Source: Croceivirga lutea
GTDB lineage: Bacteria > Bacteroidota > Bacteroidia > Flavobacteriales > Flavobacteriaceae
Length of the DNA stretch: 64,000 bases
Direction: 5' to 3'
Assembly: GCF_014235875.1 (NCBI RefSeq)
Contig: NZ_JACJUK010000003.1
Span: 248,001-312,000, forward strand
The translations under genes were made by a program, and so were the position numbers. Shown here piece by piece: positions 18,302-56,034 of this stretch; position 1 is the first letter of the stretch, and each line of letters begins with the position of its first letter. The notes beneath the pieces were generated by a model. That model ran no database searches and was not told the origin of the DNA. It saw only the letters and a program-made list of their open reading frames with translations.

Positions 18302-19117
18302 CTACAACTCTCTAACCCAAATATTACGGTAGCTTACTCTACTATTATCTCCATGATCTTGTAAACGTAACGGACCTCTACCATGGGCAGGATTTTTAGG
18401 CCATCCTATATACGGTGTTGTTCCCTTAATTTCAACATGGTCTTGAACCAATACCCCATTATGAATAACTGTTAACGTACCTGACTTTATTTTGGCCCCA
18501 TCATCATTGAATTCTGGTGCGTGATAAATAATATCATAAACATTCCAGTCACCCGTCTCAGAAGAAGCCATAGCTAAAGGTATGTGTTGCTTGTAGATAG
18601 ATGCTACTTGACCATTTACATAAGTTGGATTGTCGTTATTGTCCAAAACTTGAACTTCATATAGATTGTTCAAGAAAATTCCACTATTACCCCTACTCTG
18701 GTTTTCACCTTGCACCTCTGCCGGTGAACGCCACTCAATATGTAATTGCACACTACCAAAGTTTTGTTTGGTTTGTATGTCTCCAGTTTTATTGGCCACG
18801 GTCATACTGTTATCATCATTTATAGTCCATTTGGCCGCGGTACTATCCAATGTACTAATCCAATTGTCTAAAGAACTACCATCAAATAACACAATTGCAT
18901 CACTAGGTATACCTCTTTTAGATAGTGTTACCCTTGGAGGAACGGGCTCGTAAATTTCAGTTTCTTCGGGTTTTGTTGGTTCTTCACCTTGATATTCTTC
19001 GTAAACAATTCCTTCTACCGGTTTCTCCGCTTCTTCTAGAACAGTTTCTTTAGAGGCATTTGTATTACATGATGCAACTAAACCAAGTATTAGAAGCGAT
19101 TTTATATAATTTTTCAT
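18302..19117 (-). CDS. DUF1080 (3-keto-disaccharide hydrolase-like) lipoprotein
   Basis: A 271-residue lipoprotein (lipobox 'LVASC', Cys17). An acidic linker rich in Glu and Pro follows (to ~residue 70), then a concanavalin-like DUF1080/PF06439 domain: 'LFDGSSLDNWIS' at its start, 'LHIEWRSPAEVQGENQSRGNSGIFL' in the centre, 'YEVQVLDN' and the C-terminal 'GPLRLQDHGDNSRVSYRNIWVREL'. Family members cleave 3-keto-glycosides or bind carbohydrate. Last gene of the isomerase-DUF1080-DUF1080 operon, only 2 bp after its neighbour. The two are diverged paralogues: this one has the longer acidic spacer. Confidence 0.88.
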   Translation of the reverse strand: MKNYIKSLLILGLVASCNTNASKETVLEEAEKPVEGIVYEEYQGEEPTKPEETEIYEPVPPRVTLSKRGIPSDAIVLFDGSSLDNWISTLDSTAAKWTINDDNSMTVANKTGDIQTKQNFGSVQLHIEWRSPAEVQGENQSRGNSGIFLNNLYEVQVLDNNDNPTYVNGQVASIYKQHIPLAMASSETGDWNVYDIIYHAPEFNDDGAKIKSGTLTVIHNGVLVQDHVEIKGTTPYIGWPKNPAHGRGPLRLQDHGDNSRVSYRNIWVREL

Positions 19118-19119
19118 TT

Positions 19120-19860
19120 TTATAATTGCTTGATTTTAATATTTCTGAATGCTACAACATCGCCATGGTCTTGCAATCCAATTTTACCTGTTTTATATGC
19201 ACCAAAACCTTCCCAACCATTAAATTTAGAATCTTCAACCATTTGATCCCACATTTCTCCATGAACAGGAAATTTTACGATTTCTGTACCATTTAAATTT
19301 ACAGTACCCTCGTTGGTTTTATGGTTAACTGTTAAAACACACGTATTCCATTCTCCCGCTGGCTTAACAACTTTTTCTGAAGGAGCAACCATATCGTACA
19401 AAGCCCCTGCCTGGTGCGTTGTACCATTTTTGGCATCTGGATGCCTTTCATCATCTAAAACCTGAATTTCTGGACCAGTTTCATAAGGTTGACCAAACTT
19501 TTCATCTTCATAAACGCCCCAAAATATTCCACTATTACCACCTTCTGCAATTTTCCACTCAACATGTAAAACAAAATTGGTATATGTTTTATTAGTAACA
19601 ATGTTATAGCTTTCACCCTCTGGTCGATTACTTGGAGGGTAAAAAACTAAGGCCCCGTCTTCAATTTTCCATGGCTCAGTAAGCTCCCCGCCTCTATAAT
19701 AGCTCCAATTATCAAAAGAAGTTCCATCAAATAAAACTTCCCATTGGTTTTCATCTGTTACAGTTTCAGTTGGTTCTTCTGCGGCCACCTCTTTTTTAGT
19801 TTCTTTTTGTTTACAGCTTACTATTGCTAAGGTTAGCAATAATATATATGTTAATCTCAT
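19120..19860 (-). CDS. DUF1080 (3-keto-disaccharide hydrolase-like) lipoprotein
   Basis: A 246-residue lipoprotein (lipobox 'IVSC', Cys16). The DUF1080 domain spans about residues 38-246: 'VLFDGTSFDNWSYYRGG', 'NFVLHVEWKIAEGGNSGIFWGVYED', 'PYETGPEIQVLDDERHPDAKNG', and the end motif 'GKIGLQDHGDVVAFRNIKIKQL'. In characterised relatives this fold removes the aglycone from a 3-keto-glycoside. The start overlaps the upstream isomerase gene stop by 4 bp, so the three genes are translationally linked. Confidence 0.9.
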   Translation of the reverse strand: MRLTYILLLTLAIVSCKQKETKKEVAAEEPTETVTDENQWEVLFDGTSFDNWSYYRGGELTEPWKIEDGALVFYPPSNRPEGESYNIVTNKTYTNFVLHVEWKIAEGGNSGIFWGVYEDEKFGQPYETGPEIQVLDDERHPDAKNGTTHQAGALYDMVAPSEKVVKPAGEWNTCVLTVNHKTNEGTVNLNGTEIVKFPVHGEMWDQMVEDSKFNGWEGFGAYKTGKIGLQDHGDVVAFRNIKIKQL

Positions 19861-20909
19861 AATCCTAGAATTCGTTTTAGTTTTTCAGTATCAGTTTCAG
19901 CGCCTGCAAAATCGTCAAAGGTTTTTTGAGTTGCTTCAATAATATGGTCCTGAATAAATTTAGCCCCTTCTCGGGCTCCTTGTTCTGGACTTTTGATACA
20001 ACATTCCCATTCCATTACTGCCCAAACATCGCAACCGTATTGGGTCAATTTAGAAAATATGGTTTTAAAATCTATCTGGCCATCACCTAAAGAACGGTAT
20101 CTACCGGCACGATCTCCCCAATCATTATAGCCACCAAAAGCTCCTTTTTTACCAGTTGGATTAAACTCTGAATCTTTTACATGAAATGATTTTATAAACT
20201 CATGATAATGGTCTATGTAAGCAATGTAGTCTAATTGTTGTAACACAAAGTGACTTGGGTCATAAAGGATGTTTACACGCTTATGGTTACCGGTAGCCTC
20301 TAAAAACCGTTCAAAGGTGTCACCATCATGAATATCTTCACCTGGGTGAACCTCATAACAAACATCTACTCCTTCCTCATCATAATGGTTCAATATAGGA
20401 AGCCATCTGTCTGCCAATTCTTTAAAGCCCATTTCTACAAGACCCGGTGGCCTTTGTGGCCAAGGATGTGCCGTATGCCAAAGTAAAGAGCCAGAAAAAG
20501 TAGCATGTGCCTTAATACCTAATCTACGACTAGCAGTTGCAGCCTTTTTAACCGTTTCTATTGCCCATTGAGTTCTTTCTTTAGGTTTACCATGTAATTC
20601 CGCTGGGGCAAAGTTATCGAACATAATATCATATGCAGGATGCACTGCTACTAATTGTCCTTGAAGATGAGTAGATAGCTCCGTAATTTCTAGACCATAA
20701 GAATTTACTTTCCCTTTGAGCTCATCACAATAATCTTGACTTTCTGCTGCTTTGTCTAAATCGATAAGAAAATTTTCCCATGTTGGGATTTGAATTCCTT
20801 TGTAGCCTAAATCAGCTGCCCATTTGCACATACCATCTAAAGAGTTAAATGGTGCTTTTGAATCAACAAACTGTGCCAAAAAAACAGCTGGTCCCTTAAT
20901 TGTTTTCAT
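19857..20909 (-). CDS. Sugar phosphate isomerase/epimerase-like TIM-barrel protein
   Basis: A 350-residue cytosolic protein of the xylose-isomerase-like (AP endonuclease 2/IolE) TIM-barrel family. Visible features are 'MCKWAADLGYKGIQIPTW' (strand-helix start), 'GVDVCYEVHPGEDIHDGDTFERFLEATGNHKRVNILYDPSHF' with the metal-binding Glu/His and Asp, 'SFHVKDSEFNP' (His) and 'VWAVMEWECC' (Glu). No signal peptide, unlike the relative at 25652. It heads the operon with the two DUF1080 lipoproteins and probably acts on the keto-sugar or its product; the exact reaction cannot be read from sequence. Confidence 0.88.
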   Translation of the reverse strand: MKTIKGPAVFLAQFVDSKAPFNSLDGMCKWAADLGYKGIQIPTWENFLIDLDKAAESQDYCDELKGKVNSYGLEITELSTHLQGQLVAVHPAYDIMFDNFAPAELHGKPKERTQWAIETVKKAATASRRLGIKAHATFSGSLLWHTAHPWPQRPPGLVEMGFKELADRWLPILNHYDEEGVDVCYEVHPGEDIHDGDTFERFLEATGNHKRVNILYDPSHFVLQQLDYIAYIDHYHEFIKSFHVKDSEFNPTGKKGAFGGYNDWGDRAGRYRSLGDGQIDFKTIFSKLTQYGCDVWAVMEWECCIKSPEQGAREGAKFIQDHIIEATQKTFDDFAGAETDTEKLKRILGL

Positions 20910-20931
20910 AGGTGGTTGTATGTTATTTTTG
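20900..20931 (+). promoter_or_regulatory. Candidate flavobacterial promoter (TTG-N21-TAnnTTTG) for the ASCH gene
   Basis: TTG at 20900-20902 and TATTTTTG at 20924-20931 are separated by 21 bp, matching the Bacteroidota consensus TTG-N17-23-TAnnTTTG. It would read toward the gene at 21030 with a leader of about 90 nt, and it overlaps the start of the divergent isomerase gene. AT-rich sequence makes chance matches possible. Confidence 0.35.
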
Positions 20932-21029
20932 TTTTTTTAACGTTATTAATACGAATTTGTCGTTTTAGACGACCGAACTTGAAAAATACTAAATACCCCC
21001 GAACCCAACAATTCAAAAATCATAAATTG

Positions 21030-21491
21030 ATGATAAACAATTCGGTGGAAACACTTTGGAAACGATTTTTAGAAGCTAATCCTAAGTATGCCAAACAAGC
21101 TAAACCAAAATCTGGTTATTTTGGAGACAATGAAAAAGATGCTAATCAACTAGCAGAATTGGTTCAAAAAGATATTAAAAGAGCAACCTCACATTCGTTA
21201 TTAGGCCTTCAATTTAGGAAAGAAGCACTACCCAAACTTAACGATACGTTTATTGTTACCAATTGGGATGGTGATGCTAAATGTATTGTAAAAACAACAT
21301 CTGTAAAACTTATACCCTATTTTGGAATTCATGCTGAACATGCTAGATTGGAAGGCGAGGGTGACAAAAGTTTGGAATACTGGAAGCAGGTTCATTGGGA
21401 TTATTATAACCGAGAATTGAAACCATTTAACAGAACACCTAGAGAAAGCATGATTATTGTTTTTGAACGATTTGAAAAAATATTTGAATAA
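21030..21491 (+). CDS. ASCH-domain protein
   Basis: A 153-residue cytosolic protein beginning 'MINNSVETLWKRFLEANPKYAK'. The body resembles ASCH (PUA-like) proteins: 'ATSHSLLGLQFRKEALPKLNDTFIVTNWDGDAKCIVKTTSVKLIPYFGIHAEHARLEGEGDKSLEYWKQVHWDYY' with the family's hydrophobic strand then 'EGEGD..SLEYWKxVH' box. ASCH proteins are linked to RNA binding and some cleave modified nucleosides such as N4-acetylcytidine; here function is unassigned. The in-frame ORF extends upstream to 20916, but its first 38 residues look like translated spacer, so the ATG at 21030 is preferred. It stands alone inside the sugar region, ending in a strong terminator. Confidence 0.82.
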   Translation: MINNSVETLWKRFLEANPKYAKQAKPKSGYFGDNEKDANQLAELVQKDIKRATSHSLLGLQFRKEALPKLNDTFIVTNWDGDAKCIVKTTSVKLIPYFGIHAEHARLEGEGDKSLEYWKQVHWDYYNRELKPFNRTPRESMIIVFERFEKIFE

Positions 21492-21516
21492 AAAGAGCGG
21501 CATAAAGCCGCTCTTT
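21492..21516. terminator. Bidirectional intrinsic terminator
   Basis: A perfect 10-bp stem AAAGAGCGGC / GCCGCTCTTT around the loop ATAAA, followed by T residues on the plus strand and preceded by A residues that would serve the minus strand. It separates the convergent ASCH and Gfo/Idh/MocA genes. Confidence 0.85.
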
Positions 21517-21539
21517 TAGATTTCAGTTTAGTTTAAAAT

Positions 21540-22676
21540 TTAGTCTAAGTTGACCCATGTATTACCGTTTTTGTGACTTTCAACGGTTGCTTCAATAAAA
21601 TTCATTCCACGAACTCCATCACGCATTGTTGGATAAGCCCCATCATTTTGAGCTTCACCTCTAATGGCCCTGGCAGCGCCCAAATAAATATTTGCCATAC
21701 TATCAAAAATACCTTCAGGATGCCCAGCAGGTAATTTGGTTCCATCTAAAGAAAATTCAGAATTATAGGCATGACCTGGTTTGTATACTTGTAGCGGTTT
21801 ACCTTCTTCAAAAAAGTATAAAAAATTAGGTTTCTCTTGTTCCCAAACAAATCCACCTTTTTGGCCATAAATTCGTATTGCTAATCCATTTTCTTCACCG
21901 GTAGCTACTTGGCTACCACGAATAACACCTTTTACATGTTCTCCCATACGAATTAGCACAGTACCGTCAACATCCATTTGGTTGTCATCATATAGGTAGT
22001 TAAAATCACATAGTAAAGATTTAACTTCTAGTCCGGTAGTATATTCAACTAAATTAAAAGCGTGCACACCAATATCTCCCATACAAGAGCTAATTCCTGC
22101 TTTAGTAGGGTCTAATCGCCACACTGAAGAACGTTGCTCTTTATCATGTATAATTGGGTTAATCCATCCTTGATAATAACGTGCATCCACTTTATGAATT
22201 TTACCTAAAGCACCAGCTTTTATCATTTCGCGCATCTGGCGAACCATTGGATAACCGGTATAGGTATGGGTTAATGCAAAGACCTTACCTGATTTTTCAT
22301 GAGAATCTTGTAACGACTTTGCCTCTTCTAAATTCATCGTCATTGGCTTTTCGCAAATCACATGAAAACCATTATCCAATAATTTTTTGGCCATCGGATA
22401 GTGCAAAAAGTTTGGCGTTTGAACCGAGCAAACTTGTATACGCTCATTTTCAGGAAGCTTTAATTCTTCCTCAATTAACGTTTCAAAATCTTTATAAATT
22501 CTATTTGTGGGAATATCAATGTGTTTTGCAAACTCCAGACTTACTTCATGGTCTGGATTAAAAACCGCCCCAACAATTTCATAGTTGTCATTTATTTGAG
22601 AAGCAACTCTGTGTAAAATTCCAATTAGAGATTCTCCTCCACCACCTAAAATTCCTAATCTGATTTTCTTTGGCAT
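21540..22676 (-). CDS. Gfo/Idh/MocA-family NAD(P)-dependent oxidoreductase (cytosolic)
   Basis: A 378-residue oxidoreductase with an N-terminal Rossmann fold ('IRLGILGGGGESLIG', residues 4-18) and the family signature 'HVICEKPMTMNLEEA' with the catalytic Glu-Lys-Pro near residue 112. 'DPTKAGISSCMGDIGVHAFNLVEY' carries the D-x3-H pair of the active site. There is no signal peptide, so it acts in the cytosol, unlike the exported relatives at 40056 and 56035. It probably oxidises or reduces the C3 (or C2) position of a sugar. Likely operon with the downstream or upstream MFS genes: the next gene toward higher coordinates begins 39 bp away on the same strand. Confidence 0.92.
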   Translation of the reverse strand: MPKKIRLGILGGGGESLIGILHRVASQINDNYEIVGAVFNPDHEVSLEFAKHIDIPTNRIYKDFETLIEEELKLPENERIQVCSVQTPNFLHYPMAKKLLDNGFHVICEKPMTMNLEEAKSLQDSHEKSGKVFALTHTYTGYPMVRQMREMIKAGALGKIHKVDARYYQGWINPIIHDKEQRSSVWRLDPTKAGISSCMGDIGVHAFNLVEYTTGLEVKSLLCDFNYLYDDNQMDVDGTVLIRMGEHVKGVIRGSQVATGEENGLAIRIYGQKGGFVWEQEKPNFLYFFEEGKPLQVYKPGHAYNSEFSLDGTKLPAGHPEGIFDSMANIYLGAARAIRGEAQNDGAYPTMRDGVRGMNFIEATVESHKNGNTWVNLD

Positions 22677-22715
22677 TGTTTACTTTATTTTTTTGATTAA
22701 TAATTTTAATTGTAT

Positions 22716-23933
22716 TTAATGTGTATGTATTCTTCTAGCTTCAATTTTCTTTCTAATAGCGAATAGAATACCAAAAAGTACTACTAAGGCAAATGGGAAA
22801 AGCACCATAAAACCTAATACAGACCTACCAGCAGCAATATCGGCAGCCTCACCTACCAAACCAGAGGCTAAAGCAGTTGCTTTTTCAGTATCTAAACGTG
22901 AACCAATAATTGGATTCCAAATAGAAACAGCAAACATACCTGCACCACCCATTAACGACATACCTAGCGCACCTGTTTTAGAGATGTATTCAGAGGTAAA
23001 GCCAATCATGGTTGGCCAGAAATAACAAACTCCAAGAGCAAATAAGGCAGCTGCTACATATATCATTCCGCCATCTGCAATACTCATGAAGTAAATTGCT
23101 GAAGCAGTAATGATAGCAGACATTAATAAAACTCCAATAGGATTTAATTTATGTACCAGTGGGCCAGCAAAGAATCTACCTAAAGCCATGATACCAGTAA
23201 CTAGTGCAAGAACTAGCATAGGACTTGCCCCAGAACTACCTAAAATGGTTTCAACCCATTGTTGTGGTATAAATTCTGAAGTAGCGGTCAACGTCATACA
23301 TACAATCATAAATATGAACAAAGGGTCTGCTAGCGCCTTAATATTTAAAGAAGTATCTGATTCAATATTCTCACTCTGTGGAAATTTTTGCGTAAACACC
23401 AGTATACCATATATGATAGTTGGAATAAGCATGGTTGCTATTTGCAGTTGCCATCCTAATCCGGCATCAGTCATAAATTTAGAAACTAAAGAACCAATTA
23501 CTAAACCACCTGGAAACCAAACATGAAATTTATTTAACATGGCTGTTCTATTATTGGTATACATATCTGCAATCATTGGATTACAAGCTGCCTCAACAGA
23601 ACCGTTTGCCACACCAATAAAGAATGTAGAAATAATTAATGTCCAAAAACCACCTGCAAAAATGGTTAGTACTAGACCTAGCACATGACATATAAATGCA
23701 ATTATAAGTAAGTTTTTAGGCCCTATAGAATTATAGATTAGCCCACCTACAAGCATTGCAATAGGAAAACCTAAAAACGCCATACTATTGATATAACCTA
23801 ATTGTGTATTATTTATACCAAAATCAACGCCTAGTTGGGTTAAAATTCCTGCCCTAATTGCAAAAGTCATTGAGGTTACAATTAGCGAAACACATGCCGC
23901 TAAAAACAACTTGTTTTTGTTTATCTGCTCCAT
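22716..23933 (-). CDS. MFS transporter, probably sugar or sugar-derivative permease
   Basis: A 405-residue membrane protein with about 12 hydrophobic segments. The N-terminal half shows 'GINNTQLGYINSMAFLGFPIAMLVGGLIYNSIGPKNLLI' (MFS motif A-like between TM2 and TM3) and 'FFIGVANGSVEAACNPMIADMY' (TM4-5), as in FucP-like sugar transporters that keep an Asn-rich central channel. The substrate cannot be read from sequence; the neighbours suggest a sugar, keto-sugar or glycoside. Located between the cytosolic Gfo/Idh/MocA gene and the second transporter, all on the minus strand. Confidence 0.85.
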   Translation of the reverse strand: MEQINKNKLFLAACVSLIVTSMTFAIRAGILTQLGVDFGINNTQLGYINSMAFLGFPIAMLVGGLIYNSIGPKNLLIIAFICHVLGLVLTIFAGGFWTLIISTFFIGVANGSVEAACNPMIADMYTNNRTAMLNKFHVWFPGGLVIGSLVSKFMTDAGLGWQLQIATMLIPTIIYGILVFTQKFPQSENIESDTSLNIKALADPLFIFMIVCMTLTATSEFIPQQWVETILGSSGASPMLVLALVTGIMALGRFFAGPLVHKLNPIGVLLMSAIITASAIYFMSIADGGMIYVAAALFALGVCYFWPTMIGFTSEYISKTGALGMSLMGGAGMFAVSIWNPIIGSRLDTEKATALASGLVGEAADIAAGRSVLGFMVLFPFALVVLFGILFAIRKKIEARRIHTH

Positions 23934-23967
23934 TTTAAAATATTAGTTAGTTTATGTTTTTATTTGA

Positions 23968-25179
23968 TTAGTTATTAAGTTGAATTTTTTCGTTTTTAAA
24001 GCTTAGTAAAAAGAAGATAAAAACTACGGCTGAAATTGCTGAAGGTATTAACCATATATTCTTCCATTGATGTAATCCAGTTTCTAAGGTATAATTATCC
24101 ACAATACTACCGGCGATTTTAAAACCAATTAACATACCTACACCGTAGGTTGCTAGTGTTATTAGACCTTGCGCGGCACTACGTATTTTCTTTCCTGCTT
24201 TATAGTCTGTAAATATTTGCCCAGATACAAAAAAGAAATCGTAACAAATACCATGTAATACAATACCTAAAAAGAGCATCCAAATACTTTCGCCCGCATT
24301 TCCAAAAGCAAATAAAGCGTATCTAATTACCCAAGCAAGCATGCCAACCAACAAGGTAATTTTTAGACCAAATCGTTTTAAAAATATAGGTAGTAACAAT
24401 AATAAAAGTGCTTCTGAAATTTGCCCAAAACTCATATTACCAGCTGCATTTGCCATACCTACTTCATTTAAAAAAGGATTTGCGAAACTGTAATAAAATG
24501 CTAAGGGTATACAAATCAACACAGAAGACAAGAAAAATATCAAATAATTTTTGTCTTTTAACAAAGCAAGAGCATCTGCCCCAACTATATCACGGAAATT
24601 TGCTTTTTGTCCCTTTGCTGGTGGTGGAGTATTTGGTAGTGTAAAACTAAAAACACCCAAAAAGGCAGAAACTGCAGAAGCTAATAAAAATGTTTGTTGC
24701 AATTGCCCCTGAGATTCCCACAAAAGCACATACCCAATTAAAAGCCCTTGTAAAATCCAACCTATAGTACCCCAAAAGCGTATAGAAGCAAATTGTTTTG
24801 ACGGATCTTTCATTTGATTAAATGCCACAGCATTTACCAAAGCAAGAGTTGGCATATAAATAAGCATATAGCCCAACACATAGGGGTAAAAAACTGAAAA
24901 TTCAGTAGACATACTCATAACGTAAAGTAAAACTGCCCCTGAAAGATGTAATACCCCTAACAATTTCTGAGCTGCAAAATAGCGGTCAGCAATTAGACCT
25001 ATTACAAAAGGTGCCACAATTGCACCCCAAGCCTGAGTCATGTAAGCCGTACCTACCTCTCCTCCGGTTGAATTTAGATTGGTTCCTAAATACGTACCCA
25101 TAGTAACAAACCATGCACCCCAAACAAAAAATTCGAGAAACATCATTACTGATAGTTGAATTTTAACTTTGGTTTGCAT
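23968..25179 (-). CDS. NupG-like nucleoside/sugar permease (NHS family of MFS)
   Basis: A 403-residue MFS protein with 12 hydrophobic segments. The start 'QLSVMMFLEFFVWGAWFVTMGTYL' and 'AYMTQAWGAIVAPFVIGLIADRYFAAQKLLGVLHLSGA' match the nucleoside:H+ symporter (NupG/XapB) family; 'SIRFWGTIGWILQGLLIG' and 'YDFFFVSGQIFTDYKAGKKIRSAAQGLI' are further signatures. In Bacteroidota such permeases are often found in sugar loci, so the cargo here may be a sugar rather than a nucleoside. Ends 34 bp before the other MFS gene and abuts the DinB gene by 1 bp. Confidence 0.86.
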   Translation of the reverse strand: MQTKVKIQLSVMMFLEFFVWGAWFVTMGTYLGTNLNSTGGEVGTAYMTQAWGAIVAPFVIGLIADRYFAAQKLLGVLHLSGAVLLYVMSMSTEFSVFYPYVLGYMLIYMPTLALVNAVAFNQMKDPSKQFASIRFWGTIGWILQGLLIGYVLLWESQGQLQQTFLLASAVSAFLGVFSFTLPNTPPPAKGQKANFRDIVGADALALLKDKNYLIFFLSSVLICIPLAFYYSFANPFLNEVGMANAAGNMSFGQISEALLLLLLPIFLKRFGLKITLLVGMLAWVIRYALFAFGNAGESIWMLFLGIVLHGICYDFFFVSGQIFTDYKAGKKIRSAAQGLITLATYGVGMLIGFKIAGSIVDNYTLETGLHQWKNIWLIPSAISAVVFIFFLLSFKNEKIQLNN

Positions 25180-25180
25180 T

Positions 25181-25627
25181 TTACTTTCGCTTGTAAAATA
25201 TATAATCTAAGGATGGTGGTATGCTATCTAAGCTTCTCAACTCAGCTATAATTTGACCTCTATGATGGGTAGAATGATTAATGATATGAAACAAAATATC
25301 ATCTATTGCATTGATGTACATTTTACCCTCACTACTTTCATAATCTACTCGTAATTGAAAATCTTGAGTGTTTTTAAGAATGTCAAATGTCTTGCGTTGC
25401 ACATCGTAATGCACTTCTGACCAAGAATCTTTAGGATGCATATGCCAAACTGAGAAGACCACTTCTTCCTTCAATATTCTAGAATTCCAAATATGATGAG
25501 CGTTAAGAATATGACTAAACTTTTTTTCAATACTTATAGGTAGCTCGTTTTGCGCTAAACAAGCTTCAATAATTTTTTTATTTGCGTAAAAGTTGTAATC
25601 AAAAAGTTGCTCAAAAAACGCTCCCAT
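25181..25627 (-). CDS. DinB-superfamily metal-binding protein
   Basis: A 148-residue four-helix-bundle protein. It shows the three-His pattern typical of DinB/YfiT: 'FSHILNAHHIWNSRIL' in helix 2 and 'HIINHSTHHRGQIIAEL' near the C-terminus, with 'STHHRGQI' the strongest family signature. Relatives are thiol transferases or unassigned. It sits between the TIM-barrel lipoprotein and the NupG-like gene on the same strand, 1 bp from the latter, so it is in the operon, but a role in sugar use is unclear. Confidence 0.88.
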   Translation of the reverse strand: MGAFFEQLFDYNFYANKKIIEACLAQNELPISIEKKFSHILNAHHIWNSRILKEEVVFSVWHMHPKDSWSEVHYDVQRKTFDILKNTQDFQLRVDYESSEGKMYINAIDDILFHIINHSTHHRGQIIAELRSLDSIPPSLDYIFYKRK

Positions 25628-25651
25628 TTTGGTTCAAGAAGTTAAAAAATA

Positions 25652-26644
25652 TTAATGACCAACCTTTAACATTAATTCTTTAGTAGCTAGAATGCCCTCT
25701 TCTTCACTAAGTTCACTACCCTCATATTCAACACCAATATAGCCGGTATACCCAGCGTCTTTTACAATTTTCATCATTCTTTCATAATCTACTCTTACTT
25801 CATTTCCATTTTCATCAAAAACATAAGACTTTGCACTTACAGCTTTAGCATATGGCATTAATTCTTCTACACCCTTGTATTTGTCATATTCTTCTAAACA
25901 TTCAGAAGAATAATAATCTCCTTCTGTTCTCTTAATACAGAAATTTCCAAAATCTGGTAGGGTTCCACAATTAGGCATATTTACCTTTTGCATTACTTCA
26001 GCTAACCATTGTGCGTTAGAAGAAGGACCGCCATGATTTTCAACAATGATGTTAATATTTTTGTCTTTAGCATAAGTTGCCAATTGCGTTAAGCCATCTA
26101 CAGATGCTTCCATCCAAGCTTTTGGTTCTTGAGTTCCATTAAGATTAACTCGAATAGAATGACAGCCCATAGCAGCGGCAGCATCTACCCACTTATGATG
26201 ATTTTCCGCAGCTTCTTTTCGCTCTGCAGCATCAGCAGCGGCCAAATTACCTTGACCATCTATCATAATAAGTAAGTTTTTAAGTCCGTGTTTCTCTGCC
26301 TCAGCATTACTTTTATCAATAAAGTTTTGCATAGCCTCTTCAGAAAAATCGCTTGCCTTTAATTCTTCATAGTACAAGCCACTTACATACTCTAATCCTT
26401 CAAAACCCCATTCTTTAGCTTTTGCTGCAAATTCATAAGGGCTAATTTCTTTATCGAAAATCATTTTGTGCATTGACCACTGCGCAAGTGATAATTTAAA
26501 AAATGGTTCATTAGAATTCATAGTAGCTTCTACAGTTTCTTCTGATGTCGTGGTAGCTTCTTCTTTTTTGGTTTGTTTACAACTAAACAACACAAGTGCA
26601 AAAAATGCTAAAACAAGAAATCTAATTGTCTGATTTTTTTTCAT
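25652..26644 (-). CDS. Hydroxypyruvate-isomerase/epimerase-like TIM-barrel lipoprotein
   Basis: A 330-residue protein with a lipobox ('VLFSC', Cys22), followed by a Thr/Glu-rich linker to ~residue 45 and an AP-endonuclease-2-type TIM barrel. 'YEFAAKAKEWGFEGLEYVSG', 'KNINIIVENHGG' (Glu ligand), 'NCGTLPDFGNF' (Asp) , 'AKSYVFDENGNEVRVDY' and 'YIGVEYEGSELSEEEG' (final Glu) mark the barrel. The predicted lipid anchor would place an isomerase-type enzyme in the periplasm, which agrees with keto-sugar processing outside the cytosol. First gene of the minus-strand sugar operon; divergent from the GMC gene. Confidence 0.88.
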   Translation of the reverse strand: MKKNQTIRFLVLAFFALVLFSCKQTKKEEATTTSEETVEATMNSNEPFFKLSLAQWSMHKMIFDKEISPYEFAAKAKEWGFEGLEYVSGLYYEELKASDFSEEAMQNFIDKSNAEAEKHGLKNLLIMIDGQGNLAAADAAERKEAAENHHKWVDAAAAMGCHSIRVNLNGTQEPKAWMEASVDGLTQLATYAKDKNINIIVENHGGPSSNAQWLAEVMQKVNMPNCGTLPDFGNFCIKRTEGDYYSSECLEEYDKYKGVEELMPYAKAVSAKSYVFDENGNEVRVDYERMMKIVKDAGYTGYIGVEYEGSELSEEEGILATKELMLKVGH

Positions 26645-26781
26645 TTAGATTGATTTTTGGTTGTGTGAAATTCCTATCTACGAAAACGTTAGAGTAACAT
26701 ATTCTCAATTTTCTAAGGGATTAAATGTAGAAAATTAATTTAAGTTTTAATACTTTTAGGGAATAAACAATTTGCAACTGA

Positions 26782-28500
26782 ATGAGTAAATTCTATTACA
26801 ACGAAGAGCAGGAATCTTATGATGCTATAGTAGTTGGAACCGGCATAAGTGGCGGTTGGGCAGCTAAAGAATTATGTGAGAATGGGTTAAAAACACTTGT
26901 TTTGGAACGTGGCCCTATGGTTAAACACCGAGATGATTATAAAACAGCACATAAAGATCCTTGGGATTTTCCGCATAACGGAGAATTACCTGTAGAACAA
27001 CAGAAAAGACAAGAAAAACAAGCTAGAACTGGCTACACGGTCAAAGCCCCTCACCACCATTGGTTTGTTGATGATGTTGACCACCCTTATAATGAGGTAA
27101 AAAGATTTGATTGGATGCGTGGGTATCACTTAGGCGGACGTTCAATTATGTGGGGTAGACACAGTTACCGCTGGAGCGATATAGATTTTGCTGCTAACAA
27201 AAAAGAAGGCATAGCTGTTGATTGGCCTGTTCGTTATAAAGATATTGCCCCTTGGTATGACAAGGTAGAATCTTACATAGGCGTTTCTGGAGAACTTCTT
27301 GGTTTACCGCAATTACCAGATGGGCAATTTGAACCCATGATGGAACTTAATTGCGTAGAAGACCATGTTCGCCAAAAGGTTGCAGAAAGTTTTGGTGGCA
27401 GGGTTATCACTGCAGGTAGAGTTGCTCATATCAATAGTGATAAAAAATTTGAAGGTGACAGAAGGGTTCGTTGTCAATTTAGAAACCGATGTATAAGAGG
27501 GTGTCCTTTTGGAGCATACTTTAGCAGTTTATCTTCTACTTTACCAGCTGCGGAGCGTACAGGTAATATGACCTTAAGACCAGATTCTATTGTGCATGAG
27601 ATTATCTATGATGCTGACACCAAAAAAGCAACGGGAGTAAAAGTAATAGACCGCGAAACTAAAGAAGAATTTGAGTTTAAAGCCAAAGTAATTTTCTTAT
27701 GTGCATCAGCAGTTGCCTCCACTTCTATTTTAATGCAATCAAAATCTGACCGTTTTCCAAACGGATTAGGCAACGACTCTGGTGAGCTAGGTCACAATAT
27801 AATGGATCACCATTTTTTAGTAGGCGCTCGTGGAAAAATGGAAGGTTTTGATGATAAGTATTATAAAGGAAGAAAACCTAATGGTATTTATGTACCTAGG
27901 TTTAGAAACTTAGGTGGCGATTCTGATATGAAAGACTTTACCAGGGGTTATGGATACCAAGGTGGTGCCGGTAGAGGCGATTACGAAAATCTAGTAGCGG
28001 AAGCCAACTATGGTAAAGCATATAAAGATGCTATGTTGACCCCAGGTGGTTGGAACATGAATATGTTAGCCTTTGGGGAGATATTACCATATCATGATAA
28101 TAAAATGGTACTAGACTACGATAAAAAAGACCAGTGGGGTCTACCTACGGTAACTTTTGATGCAGAAATCAGACAAAACGAATTAAATATGCGTAAGGAC
28201 ATGCAAGATCAAGCTGTTCAAATGCTAGAAAAGTCTGGAGCAAAAGATATTGAACCTTATGACAACCCTTATGCTTTAGGTTTAGGTATTCACGAAATGG
28301 GAACCGCAAGAATGGGTAGTAGCTCAAAAACTTCGGTGGTAAATGAGTACAATCAGGTACATGCATGTAAAAATGTTTATGTAACCGATGGTGCATTTAT
28401 GACCTCAGCCTCTTGTGTAAATCCATCGTTAACATATATGGCATTCACTGCTAGGGCAGCAAACCATGCTGCAGATCAACTTAAAAAAGGAAATATATAA
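26782..28500 (+). CDS. GMC-family FAD oxidoreductase, large subunit (glycoside 3-dehydrogenase/gluconate dehydrogenase type)
   Basis: A 572-residue flavoprotein. The FAD-binding 'DAIVVGTGISGGWAAKELCENGLKTLVLERG' starts at residue 14, and the C-terminal GMC block 'GIHEMGTARMGSSSKTSVVNEYNQVHACKNVYVTDGAFM...NPSLTYMA' carries the catalytic His and Asn. A cysteine-rich segment, 'CQFRNRCIRGCPFGA' (around residue 231), is typical of the membrane dehydrogenases that pair with a small subunit. No own export signal is seen; it may leave the cell with the Tat-type small subunit, as in gluconate 2-dehydrogenase. It would oxidise a sugar hydroxyl, probably C3. TAATG overlap couples it to the next gene. 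I see no cytochrome c gene nearby. Confidence 0.9.
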   Translation: MSKFYYNEEQESYDAIVVGTGISGGWAAKELCENGLKTLVLERGPMVKHRDDYKTAHKDPWDFPHNGELPVEQQKRQEKQARTGYTVKAPHHHWFVDDVDHPYNEVKRFDWMRGYHLGGRSIMWGRHSYRWSDIDFAANKKEGIAVDWPVRYKDIAPWYDKVESYIGVSGELLGLPQLPDGQFEPMMELNCVEDHVRQKVAESFGGRVITAGRVAHINSDKKFEGDRRVRCQFRNRCIRGCPFGAYFSSLSSTLPAAERTGNMTLRPDSIVHEIIYDADTKKATGVKVIDRETKEEFEFKAKVIFLCASAVASTSILMQSKSDRFPNGLGNDSGELGHNIMDHHFLVGARGKMEGFDDKYYKGRKPNGIYVPRFRNLGGDSDMKDFTRGYGYQGGAGRGDYENLVAEANYGKAYKDAMLTPGGWNMNMLAFGEILPYHDNKMVLDYDKKDQWGLPTVTFDAEIRQNELNMRKDMQDQAVQMLEKSGAKDIEPYDNPYALGLGIHEMGTARMGSSSKTSVVNEYNQVHACKNVYVTDGAFMTSASCVNPSLTYMAFTARAANHAADQLKKGNI

Positions 28501-29153
28501 TGGAAAGAAGATCAGCACTAAAAAAAATAGGATTATCTTTTGGCTACGCTGTTGCAGCCCCAACGTTATTGAGTGTACTACAAAGTTGTGAAAGTAAAGC
28601 GGCGTATGCAGATTGGACACCAGCCTTTTTTGAAAAAGAAAAAGGATATGCCTTAGCACAAACATTAGATGTTATTTTACCAAAAACAGATACTCCTTCT
28701 GCTACAGAGTTAAACGTGCATGTTTTTATAGATTCTTTTATGAAAGAAGTTATGCCAGAAGAACAACAAAATCTGGTTAAAAAGAATATGGATGCGTTTT
28801 TTAACAAAGTTAAAGCGGATGCCGATTTGGAAAGCCTAATGGATGTTAAAGCAGAGCATATTACACCTTTATTAGATACCTATTTAAAAAAGCGTGATGA
28901 CGAAACTGAAAAAATGCATTCAGAGAGCATTTCTAACTACATGCAAGCTATTATGGCCGGTGGAGAAGCAGATTTAGATGAAGACATTTCTAGATTTTCT
29001 TTTGCGAATGATGTTAGAGATTTAGCTACATGGGCATATAAAAATACTGAGTTTATTGGAGAAGAAGTGCTAGCGTACTCTTCTATACCTGGTGAATATA
29101 TTGCGTGTGGTGATGCACAAGAACTTACCCAAGGTAAGGCTTGGTCATTGTAA
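28500..29153 (+). CDS. Gluconate 2-dehydrogenase subunit 3-like protein (small subunit of the GMC complex)
   Basis: A 217-residue exported protein. The N-terminus 'ERRSALKKIGLSFGYAVAAPTLLSVL' has the twin-arginine signal pattern, and a Cys follows at residue 30 (LQSC), so Tat export and lipid attachment are both possible. The mature part, 'LAQTLDVILPKTDTPSATELNVHVFIDSFMKEVMPEEQQ' then mostly helices, matches the gluconate 2-dehydrogenase subunit 3 family (LacC/GA2DH small subunit). It probably carries the folded GMC subunit through the Tat system. Its ATG overlaps the GMC stop (TAATG). Confidence 0.88.
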   Translation: MERRSALKKIGLSFGYAVAAPTLLSVLQSCESKAAYADWTPAFFEKEKGYALAQTLDVILPKTDTPSATELNVHVFIDSFMKEVMPEEQQNLVKKNMDAFFNKVKADADLESLMDVKAEHITPLLDTYLKKRDDETEKMHSESISNYMQAIMAGGEADLDEDISRFSFANDVRDLATWAYKNTEFIGEEVLAYSSIPGEYIACGDAQELTQGKAWSL

Positions 29154-29175: not shown

Positions 29176-29203
29176 AAAAGTCACTCAGTTGAGTGACTTT
29201 TTT
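29176..29203 (+). terminator. Intrinsic terminator after the GMC/small-subunit operon
   Basis: A perfect 11-bp stem AAAAGTCACTC / GAGTGACTTTT with the loop AGTT, followed by a T-run. It lies 22 bp after the stop codon of the small subunit. Confidence 0.88.
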
Positions 29204-40055: not shown

Positions 40056-41480
40056 ATGCAAAGACGAAAGTTCATAAAAAATGCAACGGCATCTGCTGCG
40101 GCATTTACTATTGTTCCTAGCCATGTTTTAGGCAAAACCCATGTACCTCCGAGTGATACTCTCTATGTTGCTGGTTTTGGTGTTGGTGGTCGTGGTAGCG
40201 GTGTTATAAATGGTCTACATAATACGGGCAAAGTAAAGTTTGTAGCCTTATGTGATGTAGATGAAAGACGCGCTGGGGAAACATTTAAAAAATTTCCAAA
40301 AGCTAAAACCTACAAAGACTTTAGAAAAGTATATGATAAGCATTTAAAAGAGTTTGATGCTATAATGGTGGCCACACCAGACCATACGCATGCTAGTATA
40401 GCACTACCCTTTATGCGTGAGAAAAAGCATGCATATGTAGAAAAGCCCTTAACACATAATATTTACGAAGCACGTTTAATGACACAGGTAGCTCGTGAAA
40501 ATGGTATAGTTACGCAAATGGGTAACCAGGGGGCATCTAGTGACGATAGCCGTATTGCTAGAGAGTGGGTTGAAAGTGGTGTTATTGGTAAAATACATAC
40601 TATTGAATGCTGGACCAATAGACCTGTTTGGCCGCAAGGCGTGCCAAAACCAACCGAAAAACAACGTATACCCAAAGGTTTAGATTGGGATTTATGGTTA
40701 GGGCCAGCAGCAATGCGAGATTATAACGAAGCCTATTTACCTTTTAAATGGAGAGGATTCTGGGATTTTGGAACTGGAGCACTAGGAGATATGGGTTGCC
40801 ATATAATGGAAACCCCGTTCAGCGTATTAGATTTAGGTTATCCAAAAGAAGCTGAAGCCAGCTGCACAACGGTTTGGGTAGGCGATTTTGTTGAAGCCGA
40901 CTACAGTCATTCTTGCCCTCCTTCTTCTAAAATTCATTTAAAGTTTGCGCATGATTATCATGGAGACATACAATTAAACTGGTATGATGGTGGCCTTAAA
41001 CCAGACTTACCAGACGAATTAAAAGACGGTGAAACCATAGGTTCATCTGGTGGCGGTACCATTATGTATGGTGACAGAGGTACCTTAATTTTTGATACGT
41101 ATTCTCAAAACGCTCGATTTTTACCATCAGAGTTAAAAGAGATTTACAAGTCTCCTCAACCTAAATACACTAGAATAAAAGGTGGTATGGATGGACATAT
41201 TGCCAACTTTGTAGCGGGTTGTTTAACTGGTGTAGAGACCTCTTCTAACTTTGAAAAAGCAGGTAAATTAACTGAAACTGTTCTTATGGGTAATCTTGCC
41301 GTAAAAGCATATCAATACAAAAAATTAAAACCTGGTAAAAAGATTGGTGATTGGGACCCCTTTGAATATGAAGGTAGAAGAAAACTGCTATGGGATGGTG
41401 AAAACATGAAAATTACCAATTACGATAAAGCCAACGAGTGGGTAACACGTGAATACCGTAAAGGGTGGGAGTTAAAATAA
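40056..41480 (+). CDS. Exported Gfo/Idh/MocA-family oxidoreductase
   Basis: A 474-residue oxidoreductase with an N-terminal 'QRRKFIKNATASAAAFTIV', a Tat-like signal, which would send a folded NAD(P)-loaded enzyme to the periplasm. The Rossmann glycines are in 'VAGFGVGGRGSG', the family Glu-Lys-Pro motif is 'HAYVEKPLTHNIYEA', and 'WDFGTGALGDMGCHIMETPF' holds the active-site Asp and His. 'TQMGNQGASSDDSRIAREW' is characteristic of the large Bacteroidota/Planctomycetes subfamily. The gene stands alone, not beside a DUF1080 partner. Confidence 0.9.
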   Translation: MQRRKFIKNATASAAAFTIVPSHVLGKTHVPPSDTLYVAGFGVGGRGSGVINGLHNTGKVKFVALCDVDERRAGETFKKFPKAKTYKDFRKVYDKHLKEFDAIMVATPDHTHASIALPFMREKKHAYVEKPLTHNIYEARLMTQVARENGIVTQMGNQGASSDDSRIAREWVESGVIGKIHTIECWTNRPVWPQGVPKPTEKQRIPKGLDWDLWLGPAAMRDYNEAYLPFKWRGFWDFGTGALGDMGCHIMETPFSVLDLGYPKEAEASCTTVWVGDFVEADYSHSCPPSSKIHLKFAHDYHGDIQLNWYDGGLKPDLPDELKDGETIGSSGGGTIMYGDRGTLIFDTYSQNARFLPSELKEIYKSPQPKYTRIKGGMDGHIANFVAGCLTGVETSSNFEKAGKLTETVLMGNLAVKAYQYKKLKPGKKIGDWDPFEYEGRRKLLWDGENMKITNYDKANEWVTREYRKGWELK

Positions 41481-48830: not shown

Positions 48831-51800
48831 TTATAAACTCAACGCACCAATACCAGCCTCCCACAATAACTTGTTATAAGCTGGTATGGTGTTATTTTTT
48901 AAATCTGTTGCCTTTGCCTTAAGTGTTTGCCACTCTTTTTCTAGCTCTGCTTTACGTTCCTTATTAGCGGTGTTCACTCTAGGCAAATCACTATTTGTCT
49001 GATTAATTAAGAATAAATACTCTGCTGTAAATTTATTTGGAAAGTTCTCTACATCATCATAGGCTTGCGACTTGCGCTGTACCATAGCCTCATCCCAAGA
49101 TTTTAATTTTGCTAATAACTCGGTTCCCTTTTGTTTTAATTCTTTGTCTTTAACTTTGGGTAAAATACCATTTAGTTTATTTTGAATAAGGTACAAGTTA
49201 TTTACTAGCTCATGCATGGTGGTAAGCTCTTTTTCCATCGCACTCATAAAAACATCAAACTCCTCATAATCCTCCGTTGAAACATTGTATGTAGTTATCT
49301 TTTTAATCACTGCCTTAGTAGTGACCGTTTTGCCATTAGCTTGTAGCGTGATGTTATAGGTGCCCGGAATTACTTTATGTCCCGTAAAACCGGCTTCGAT
49401 ATAGACTCCAGGTACGCCCGGCATGATAGGATGTTTCATATCCCACACAAAACGATTTAATCCTTCTTTTTTAGGCAATTGTGGTGCTCGTGGTGCACTC
49501 CCTCCGTTGTGTGGCACATAAGTGCTATCCTTTTTAGAGGTAAACGAACGAATCAATTCATTGTTTTCATCACGTATTTCTAAGGTGATGTTTGCTGAAT
49601 CATCCAACTTAGGCAACTCGTAATACAACACCACTCCGTTTGCTGGATTAATACCTTCAAAAGGATGTATACCTGTAAACTTATCGGTATTGCCACTCAT
49701 TGGGCTTCCCCACGACCCTAAGTAAGCGTCGTCTGGTTGATAGATTTTCACTTCATTACTATCCAATTTTTCATAAGTGGTGAGTACATCCAAATCGTCT
49801 AAAATCCAGAAAGACCTACCGGAAGTTGCTACGATTAAATCGCGCTCATGCACCTTTACATCCAAAATAGGCGTGGTTGGCAAGTTCAATTGAAAAGGCT
49901 CCCAATTGGCACCACCATTAAAGGAAATGTACATGCCCAGCTCAGTACCCGCATACAACAAATCTTTACGCTTGGTATCTTCTCGAACAACTCTGGTAAA
50001 TGCCCCATACGGTATTCCAGTGTTGATTTTCTCCCAAGAGGCGCCGTAATTAGTGCTCTTGTAAATGGCAGGAGTATAATCGTTAAACTTATATTTTGTT
50101 GTGGCAATGTAAATGGTGGCTGGATTGTGCGGCGATACTTCAATCGCATTAACCAAAGCCTCTCCTATGCCTTTAGGCGTGATATTTTCCCAAGTTTCAC
50201 CTCCATTTTTGGTTATATGAACCAAACCGTCATCACTACCTGTTAACAGTACGCCTTTTTCATGAGGTGACTCTATCATATACGCCAACGTACCATAATT
50301 TTCTGCACCAACGGCTTCGTTCGTATATGGGCCGCCACCATTACCCTGCTTTTCATCAATATTACGCGTTAAATCGGGTGAAATTTCTTCCCAATTCTTA
50401 CCCATATCGCGTGTGCGTAGTACCAACTGTGCCCCATGGTAATACGTACCAGGTTCGTGTTTGGAACCAATGATAGGTGCATTCCAATTGTATAGATACT
50501 TCATATTTCGGGCTTCCCTGCCTAAATATTGAATAGGTGCCGCCATAATTTTCGTAGAAGCTTTGCTTTCCATATCTAACACTTCTATAGTGCCTAAGTA
50601 ACTTCCGCCTAAAACATGTGTAGGGTTGTCTGGGTCAAACGCCAAAAAGGCACTTTCACCCCCTGCAGCGTAGGTCCAATCTTGTTCACTAATACTATAT
50701 CTACCTAAAGACCTGCTTGCAATACGTACCGAAGTATTGTCTTGTTGACCGCCATAAATGTTATACGGAAACAAATTGTCAACACTAATGCGGTAAAACT
50801 GAGCCGTAGGCATATGGTCTTGTGGCGACCATGTTTTAGCAAAATCAAAACTCACCGCTGCTCCGCCATCATTAGCAATGACCATATTATTAGAGTTGTC
50901 GGGATTAATCCATAAATCGTGATAATCTCCATGTGTGCCAGATAATCTCTCCCAAGTCTTTCCACCATCGGTAGAACGTAAAGCTGGTGCGCTTAACACA
51001 TAAACCGTATCGGTATCGTTGGGGTCTGCAAAGACTTCAATATAGTACCATGCGCGTTGCACCAACCGATTATCGCCACTCACCATTTGCCAAGAAGCAC
51101 CCGCATCGTTAGAAACAAACAATCCGCCTTTATCTTGGTTGGAATCGCTCTCTATTAAGGCATAAACTCGGTTAGAATCGGCACCACTCACTGCAATAGC
51201 CATTTTCCCCTTTTCTTGTGGTAATCCTTTATGGATTTTAGTCCAGGTTTCACCAGCATCGGTAGACTTGTACAGGCCGCTACCTTCACCACCACTAACT
51301 ACCATATTGGGTTTACGTTGATGTTGCCACATAGCAGCATACATTATTTCAGGATAGTTAGCATCTATAGATAGTTCTGAAGCGCCAGTTAGTTCATTTA
51401 CAAACAAGGTATTTTTCCATGTTTTACCACCATCAACCGACTTATAAATTCCACGTTCAGGATTGCCTTGAAACAATGCCCCCTGTGCCGCTACATAAAC
51501 GATATCTGGATTTGTAGGATGAATAATGATACGAGATATATGCTGGGTTTTGGTGAGACCAATATGCTTCCAAGTTTTACCTGCATCTGTAGACTTGTAT
51601 ACCCCATCGCCGTAGGAAGTCATTACCCCTCTAGGGGCATGTTCTCCCATACCACAATACACGATATTGGGATTAGAAGGAGCCACTGCCACCGCCCCAA
51701 CAGAACCCGTTTTAAAATAACCGTCAGAAATATTATCCCACTTTTGACCGGCCGTGGAGGTTTTCCAAAGTCCACCTCCGGTAGTTCCCATGTAATAGGT

Positions 51801-51959
51801 TAGCGGGTCACCAATAACACCGGTTGCCGTTACGGAACGTCCTCCTCTAAACGGACCAATATTTCGGTATTTAAGTGGACTAAAATAGTCGTTAGCGGTT
51901 TGAGCAAGACCTAAATACCCAAAAACACCCAATACAAGAACAAAAAGATATTTTTTCAT
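48831..51959 (-). CDS. Large exported VPS10/sortilin-like multi-propeller protein
   Basis: A 1042-residue protein with a signal peptide ([20 protein letters not shown]). It begins '[17 protein letters not shown]' then carries a series of Asp-box units ('S/TxDxGxTW': '[10 protein letters not shown]', '[10 protein letters not shown]', '[10 protein letters not shown]', '[10 protein letters not shown]', '[10 protein letters not shown]', '[10 protein letters not shown]', '[10 protein letters not shown]', '[10 protein letters not shown]'), typical of BNR/VPS10-like beta-propellers. A helical C-terminal segment (residues ~940-1020) follows. The frame extends 7 codons upstream to overlap the neighbouring gene, but the ATG at 51959 gives the signal peptide. 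It is a tandem paralogue of the next gene. Confidence 0.88.
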
Positions 51960-51969
51960 CATTACCAAA

Positions 51970-54900: not shown

Positions 54901-55110
54901 ATAAAACAGGTTAGGTTCGCCAGGAACTCCGGTTACCGCCGCAGACCTACCGCCACGGAACGGACCTACTAAACGGTATTCCAAACTAGAATACAGTTCT
55001 TCTTTAGGACCGGTATCTTGATTTTGTTTTCGGCGTTGTGAATGCCCCGATAATGTAAATAGGAAAGTAGCCAGTACTAACACACTGGCTTTGGCTGTGA
55101 ATGTTTTCAT
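51970..55110 (-). CDS. Large exported VPS10/sortilin-like multi-propeller protein (paralogue)
   Basis: A 1046-residue protein with a signal peptide (residues 1-24, ending GHSQ), then '[19 protein letters not shown]' and many Asp-boxes ('[10 protein letters not shown]', '[10 protein letters not shown]', '[10 protein letters not shown]', '[10 protein letters not shown]', '[10 protein letters not shown]', '[10 protein letters not shown]', '[10 protein letters not shown]', '[10 protein letters not shown]'). The layout, from the opening GGRS through the propeller series to a helical tail, matches the next gene downstream, so they are tandem duplicates that have diverged. It ends 10 bp before the other gene, so one operon. 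Bacteroidota proteins of this build are often called glycosyl-hydrolase-like or sortilin-like, but the function is not established. Confidence 0.88.
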
Positions 55111-56009: not shown

Positions 56010-56034
56010 CTGAAAAAACTAAACTAACTGAATA

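Follow-up and report, generated by a model that had tools for sequence, protein, structure and literature searches.

Genes of the cluster and their closest relatives

The genome of the flavobacterium Croceivirga lutea (3.45 Mb in 19 contigs) harbors a cluster of 11 genes which, as judged from sequence relatedness, quite probably encodes a route for glycosides proceeding by oxidation, elimination, hydration, and reduction. The cluster lies at positions 18302-29153 of the window, i.e., the whole stretch of 64,000 nucleotides analyzed (C13:248001-312000), and comprises the features listed below. All genes named in a preliminary description of this DNA are present as intact open reading frames (ORFs) scoring above the Pfam cut-offs, and the proposed profile searches returned two PF06439 lipoproteins, two PF01261 TIM barrels, the GMC dehydrogenase, and the PF13618 subunit. 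As also described before, none of the 11 genes has a Pfam match to a glycoside hydrolase family or to SusC/SusD, the pair expected of polysaccharide utilization loci; this search covered the cluster and not the rest of the genome.

18302-19117, minus strand: DUF1080 (PF06439) lipoprotein b, probable 3-keto-glycoside lyase/hydrolase (Pfam 122.7 bits; best solved relative PDB 4qhz, E 1.5e-76)
19120-19860, minus strand: DUF1080 (PF06439) lipoprotein a, probable 3-keto-glycoside lyase/hydrolase (Pfam 162.5 bits; 14 distinct PDB chains, 4jqt first, also 3h3l, 8v31, 8rr2, and 8tda)
19857-20909, minus strand: cytosolic TIM barrel (PF01261), probable 2-hydroxy-3-keto-glucal hydratase (HYD; PDB 8ro4; no signal by eye)
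20916-21491, plus strand: ORF of an ASCH-domain gene with an in-frame ATG at 21030 (PF04266, 71.2 bits, scanned as 21006-21491)
21492-21516, no strand assigned: hairpin, possible terminator between the convergent ASCH and Gfo genes (by eye; unflagged in the hairpin scan)
21540-22676, minus strand: cytosolic Gfo/Idh/MocA oxidoreductase, probable 3-keto-glucose reductase (Pfam; PDB 3v5n, E 4.7e-93)
22716-23933, minus strand: MFS transporter (MFS2), probable importer of the cleavage product (PF07690)
23968-25179, minus strand: MFS transporter of the nucleoside-H+-symporter family (NUC), probable alternative importer (PF03825, 398.6 bits)
25181-25627, minus strand: DinB-family protein (PF05163, 55.4 bits)
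25652-26644, minus strand: lipid-anchored TIM barrel (PF01261), relative of 3-keto-C-glycoside lyase alpha subunits (lipobox LFSC by eye)
26782-28500, plus strand: GMC dehydrogenase, LacA-like, with a C-x5-C-x3-C motif (Pfam; PDB matches)
28500-29153, plus strand: LacC-like small subunit (PF13618) with a twin-arginine N-terminus by eye (Pfam)
29176-29201, plus strand: terminator-like hairpin 3' of the small-subunit gene (hairpin scan)

The strongest assignment of the pathway concerns the cytosolic TIM barrel at 19857-20909, which matches PDB entry 8ro4 ("2-hydroxy-3-keto-glucal hydratase") over its full length (residues 1-350, E 2.8e-164) and is the single match to this enzyme in its own genome. 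It had previously been regarded as an isomerase/epimerase; its TIM-barrel fold and cytosolic location still apply, but the full-length match favors a hydratase, and the protein probably hydrates 2-hydroxy-3-keto-glucal. Entry 8ro4 is presumably AtHYD of Agrobacterium. The cytosolic Gfo/Idh enzyme is the probable 3-keto-glucose reductase of the last step. A role as the C3 oxidant is unlikely, since it scores 34.7 bits against BT_2158_fam (NF058561, glycoside 3-dehydrogenase), the model for the Gfo/Idh oxidant of BT2158-type systems, the cut-off of which is 750.

In the DUF1080 lipoproteins, the histidine of a C-terminal LQ.H motif is kept in all 46 counted orthologues of lipoprotein a and all 33 of lipoprotein b (rows below 40% identity or 200 amino acids were dropped, and 5 and 8 rows missed by the pattern were read by eye). 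The H275N variant of a Bacteroides lyase is described as hydration-deficient (PMC13273386). We infer that this lyase is BT2157 and its His275 the histidine of the C-terminal LQDH motif. Action of the DUF1080 proteins on 3-keto-glycosides outside the cytosol, as envisaged in the preliminary description, is consistent with these homologies, with beta-elimination being more likely than plain hydrolysis.

The GMC protein has the large subunit of fructose dehydrogenase and a glucose dehydrogenase as top PDB matches, and its alignment with the former spans the full length, including the Cys region. The C-x5-C-x3-C motif recurs in 59 of the 59 best GMC hits and presumably binds a 3Fe-4S cluster, as in the fructose and glucose dehydrogenase families. 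Homology supports an exported GMC dehydrogenase with a small subunit of the twin-arginine translocation (Tat) type, oxidizing at C3, as previously described.

Conservation, gene layout, and the electron acceptor

The hydratase gene was found in 71 of 149 sampled genomes of Flavobacteriaceae (one weak match being left out). Neighbors were counted in 66 family loci, each from a different genus and picked for having the hydratase: Gfo genes occur nearby in 65, the TIM lipoprotein in 61, GMC in 60, its small subunit in 58, DinB in 20, and ASCH in 19. At least one MFS type is encoded in 64 of these loci, and DUF1080 with 40% identity or more in 55. This grouping exceeds chance. A second set of 80 named loci represents the best 80 of at least 587 matches, includes several short contigs, and probably overlaps in species with the family set; it shows Gfo in 71, GMC in 60, the small subunit in 56, the TIM lipoprotein in 54, and DUF1080 of at least 40% identity in 62. 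At the genome level, a DUF1080 match (E 1e-3) accompanies the hydratase in 71 of 71 cases and is present in 27 of the 78 other genomes (Fisher 2.7e-20, relatedness not corrected); 92 of these 98 genomes pass the family cut-off. Across a sample of the phylum, 94 of 296 genomes have a hydratase match at E 1e-3, 57 of them at 62% identity or more and 37 at 36% or less. Among the named records listed, [Muricauda], Allomuricauda, and Flagellimonas match the hydratase at 91-93% identity, which probably puts the genome within or close to this group.

The two transporter types mostly replace each other, 47 of the 66 family loci having only NUC, 13 only MFS2, 4 both (as does the window), and 2 neither, which suggests that they do the same job. 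A second GMC copy is present in 13 of the 60 loci with a counted GMC gene, in 8 of them between the hydratase and ASCH genes, where the window has none.

Two divergent operons had been proposed for the cluster. The GMC pair is indeed divergent, but two genes had been overlooked, a DinB-family gene in the leftward run and the plus-strand ASCH gene between the hydratase and Gfo genes. The ASCH gene and the hairpin at 21492-21516 separate hydratase-DUF1080-DUF1080 from TIM-DinB-MFS-MFS-Gfo, so the two-operon picture is probably too simple: the leftward run probably represents two units, which with ASCH and the GMC pair makes four in all. Among the 46 family loci with both Gfo and hydratase genes and no ASCH gene, the two are at most 200 bases apart in 41 (at most 30 bases in 30) and further apart in 5, and this close spacing suggests that they once belonged to one ancestral operon. 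The hairpin scan found 13 terminator-like sites in the window vs. 7.6 expected, and a scan of the window for sigma-70-type promoters was uninformative (31 found vs. 42.7 expected). The DinB and ASCH genes have no evident role in the cluster.

None of the 11 genes has a Pfam hit to a cytochrome family, and without a LacB-type cytochrome c in the cluster the electron acceptor of the GMC pair would come from elsewhere. A search limited to PF13442 found six places elsewhere in the genome. One of them, C12:442749 (L120:15537-16016), encodes a 159-amino-acid cytochrome c lipoprotein that shares 51-57% identity with the cytochromes of loci L147, L149, L152, L156, L157, and L160 and 46% with those of L146 and L163, making it a candidate for this acceptor. 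The cytochrome c gene of relative L146 is located 14 bases from the GMC gene on the same strand; in L147, L149, L152, and L156 it is on the opposite strand within 8 bases of the end of the small-subunit gene, in L157 and L160 on the opposite strand 493 and 1272 bases from that end, and in L163 beside a DUF1080 gene. Cytochromes c of another family are encoded between the hydratase and DUF1080 genes in L205, L207, and L208 and next to the hydratase gene in L202. Most of the 80 named loci, as mapped, have no cytochrome c gene nearby. A mono-heme cytochrome c of Rhizobium radiobacter is reported to take electrons from glucoside 3-dehydrogenase (PMC9915066).

Related sets are also present on plasmids of Pseudomonadota. 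Of the 353 plasmid records with a hydratase match, 215 show 60-80% identity and 138 less than 60%; five regions, a small sample of our own choosing, were compared. The set of Pseudoalteromonas donghaensis combines the hydratase with Gfo, MFS (61% identical to MFS2), DUF1080, GMC, small-subunit, and TIM genes, and that of Ketogulonicigenium robustum with Gfo, GMC, small-subunit, and TIM genes; by eye, the N-termini of the two TIM proteins resemble signals. Croceicoccus marinus has the hydratase with Gfo, GMC, the small subunit, a TIM protein next to DUF6379, and a GH3 gene in the same run; its TIM protein matches 8qvc at 7e-103 and 9m3b (DgpC1) at 1.1e-39. The annotation of the Phyllobacterium region shows genes for Gfo, LacI, and ABC proteins next to the hydratase and none for GMC; the Rhizobium record is unannotated. 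Within this small, chosen sample, the arrangement is read as a hydratase that stays constant and a lyase that can be exchanged.

The proposed pathway and its alternatives

According to the proposed route, the GMC dehydrogenase would be exported in folded form on its Tat-type small subunit and oxidize the glycoside at C3 outside the cytosol, its electrons passing by way of the Fe-S site to a cytochrome c whose gene lies outside the cluster. The DUF1080 lipoproteins, perhaps together with the lipid-anchored TIM barrel, would then cleave the 3-keto-glycoside mainly by beta-elimination, yielding the aglycone or second sugar and 2-hydroxy-3-keto-glucal, which the DUF1080 enzymes may hydrate in place. 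Either the glucal or a 3-keto-sugar would be imported by one of the two MFS proteins. In the cytosol, the TIM barrel is predicted to convert 2-hydroxy-3-keto-glucal to 3-keto-glucose, which is the step best backed by sequence, and the Gfo/Idh enzyme would reduce 3-keto-glucose to glucose. The previously proposed sequence of oxidation outside, cleavage outside, and import is therefore retained in outline on the basis of homology, with the chemistry of cleavage probably being elimination and not plain hydrolysis. Elimination is the most likely mode because of the homology of the hydratase and because a system with similar genes follows the order oxidation, elimination, hydration, and reduction (PMC10628242). 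Since the cluster otherwise has the gene kinds of that Agrobacterium system, the lyase step is assigned to the DUF1080 proteins or the lipid-anchored TIM barrel.

Several points weigh against this reading, among them the lack of a cytochrome c gene in the cluster. The hydratase label depends on the name of a PDB entry, and in 11 of the 66 family loci the stretch read contains no DUF1080 gene that reaches 40% identity. Of the Pseudomonadota proteins, the hydratase alone is closely similar to its counterpart in the window (65-69% identity); Gfo shares 35-42%, GMC 56, 46, and 32%, and the small subunit 25% with that of Ketogulonicigenium and no match with the others, so these sets resemble the cluster without being strictly orthologous to it. 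The published genetic data point both ways: none of ten DUF1080 genes of Pedobacter shows a phenotype on lactose (PMC9007349), and deletion of BT2157 or BT2158 causes no growth defect on raffinose-family sugars, although transposon defects for BT2156-BT2160 are cited in the same paper (PMC11501099). A hydrolytic DUF1080 step may also remain compatible with the data.

Such a step is part of an alternative in which the DUF1080 proteins hydrolyze 3-keto-glycosides outside, 3-keto-glucose is imported, and the cytosolic TIM barrel converts it further as an isomerase or epimerase. PF06439 carries the Pfam name 3-keto-disaccharide hydrolase, and a DUF1080 protein has been proposed as 3'-ketolactose hydrolase with two sugar epimerases, presumably TIM barrels, encoded beside it (PMC9007349). 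The full-length relationship of the cytosolic TIM barrel to 8ro4, together with the preliminary evidence for hydration by Agrobacterium AtHYD (PMC10628242), makes this alternative unlikely. A cluster for another polyol or sugar, e.g., an inositol-like compound, with the GMC protein as sugar/polyol dehydrogenase and the TIM barrels as dehydratase and epimerase, is very improbable. In its favor, the cytosolic TIM barrel weakly resembles IolE (63.6 bits, cut-off 290), Gfo weakly resembles IolG (47.9 bits, cut-off 355), and PF03825 hints at a nucleoside-type transporter; against it, both scores fall far below the cut-offs, and DUF1080 matches are found in all 71 hydratase genomes.

Within the elimination route, the lipid-anchored TIM barrel is tentatively proposed as a further extracytosolic 3-keto-glycoside lyase, namely, a descendant of CGE-alpha that works without the beta subunit, has its metal site changed (His to Ser) or lost, and is anchored beside the dehydrogenase in many flavobacteria. 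Its closest solved relative is 4ovx, the title of which names no tested function, and the best profile matches after it are lyase alpha subunits. No DUF6379 beta subunit is among the Pfam hits of the cluster, the only part of the genome searched for it. The protein otherwise matches these alpha subunits one residue after another, but Ser270 occupies the position of the metal-binding histidine of 3-keto-C-glycoside lyases and of the hydratase, leaving the Glu-Asp-His-Lys-Glu metal site incomplete, with Glu202, His204, Asp231, Lys272, and Glu306 kept. A Ser-x-Lys motif is present in 61 of 61 TIM lipoproteins (VSAK in 60, ISAK in 1).

Equally tentatively, this protein may be no lyase at all: it could be an epimerase or a relative whose metal-dependent activity has been lost. 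Exchange of the metal-binding histidine for alanine dramatically lowered the activity of two 3-keto-C-glycoside lyases (PMC8563793), which bears on Ser270; the profile also matches "Art22" (8z1i, 1.5e-7), D-tagatose 3-epimerases (2.3e-6), and IolI; and at 40% identity the protein is missing from 5 of the 66 family loci and 26 of the 80 named loci, some of the latter being short contigs. On the other hand, the counterparts of the AgCGD2 active site (catalytic His149; Glu147, Asp179, Lys271, and Glu305) are invariant in 40 of 40 aligned TIM lipoproteins, which argues for a working active site, as do the lyase alpha subunits following 4ovx for a lyase. Two other affiliations are less likely: compared with a profile probability of 97.3% for the CGE-alpha-like protein of Croceicoccus, those for the hydratase and for an OGE-like TIM protein are 0.8 and 9.8%, the latter referring to a Pseudoalteromonas protein labeled from its H-x-H motif and not to AtOGE itself. 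If the lyase assignment is true, the lyase (TIM lipoprotein, DUF1080, OGE-like, or CGE) would be the part that is exchanged, and the hydratase with its Gfo and GMC partners the part that stays constant.

Relation to known systems

Clusters combining LacABC with DUF1080 are described from Caulobacter, Indibacter, Algoriphagus, and Halomonas, among them Bacteroidota, together with Caulobacter fitness data (PMC9007349). The present cluster shares with them the LacA-type GMC protein, the PF13618 small subunit, and DUF1080, as judged at the family level. Caulobacter lacABC is flanked by genes for a transporter, two epimerases, and a reductase, and DUF1080, transporter, two TIM, and reductase genes are likewise found here. 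Differences are the cytochrome c LacB, which is not seen in the present cluster, and the added genes for a second MFS protein (of the nucleoside-symporter family), DinB, and ASCH. The fate of 3-ketogalactose is left open in PMC9007349.

The Agrobacterium tumefaciens operon encodes GlycDH, the TIM beta-eliminase AtOGE, the TIM hydratase AtHYD, and a Gfo reductase, and the methods of the same paper mention expression of Rhizobium GlycDH with a Tat protein (PMC10628242). It shares with the present cluster a flavoenzyme dehydrogenase, a hydratase-type TIM barrel, a Gfo reductase, and the order of reactions, whereas its lyase is OGE; here the lyase would be the DUF1080 proteins and perhaps the CGE-alpha-like lipoprotein, and cleavage appears to be extracytosolic. 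From the alpha subunits of 3-keto-C-glycoside lyases (CGE/CGD/DgpC; PDB 7exz, 9m3b, and 8qvc), the TIM protein of the cluster differs in being a lipoprotein with Ser270 for the metal histidine and no DUF6379 partner in the cluster's Pfam hits. BT2156, a TIM barrel, belongs to the BT2156-BT2160 genes of Bacteroides thetaiotaomicron, which have a DUF1080 protein in common with the cluster, but use a Gfo/Idh oxidant where GMC is present here. The DUF1080 protein BT2157 and BT2156 are reported as alternative partners of BT2158 (PMC12385236).

Two BT2158-like genes are found in the window, both outside the cluster. The one at 40056-41480 encodes a Gfo/Idh protein with a twin-arginine-like N-terminus (BT_2158_fam, 488 bits vs. 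cut-off 750), relatives of which occur near the cluster in several related genomes; the other (56035-57468, 302 bits vs. 750) follows a third DUF1080 lipoprotein gene, and 55215-57468 is possibly a second, Gfo-type keto-glycoside module. Elsewhere in the genome, contig C14 (L117:6893-13214) carries a second set in which a GMC protein (56% identical to that of the window) is encoded together with a small subunit and a twin-arginine Gfo protein; a DUF1080 gene follows at a distance of about 2 kb. In total, PF06439 matches eight times in the genome, twice within one protein, and there are three places each for GMC and PF13618. Two adjoining proteins of about 1050 amino acids with Sortilin/BNR repeats are encoded at 48831-55110, where G+C is about 0.40 vs. 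0.33-0.36 before.

The locus is real and widely conserved, and its kind is already in print. To this, the present analysis adds the assignment of the hydratase, the lack of a cytochrome and a candidate to fill it, lyases and transporters that may stand in for one another, and an unusual metal position in the TIM lipoprotein. A testable function is also proposed for the lipid-anchored TIM barrels related to 4ovx. The findings suggest that Flavobacteriaceae commonly carry a locus for the non-hydrolytic glycoside route known from other bacteria. Counts of carbohydrate-active enzymes (CAZymes) would presumably miss such a locus, which contains no classical glycosidase gene.

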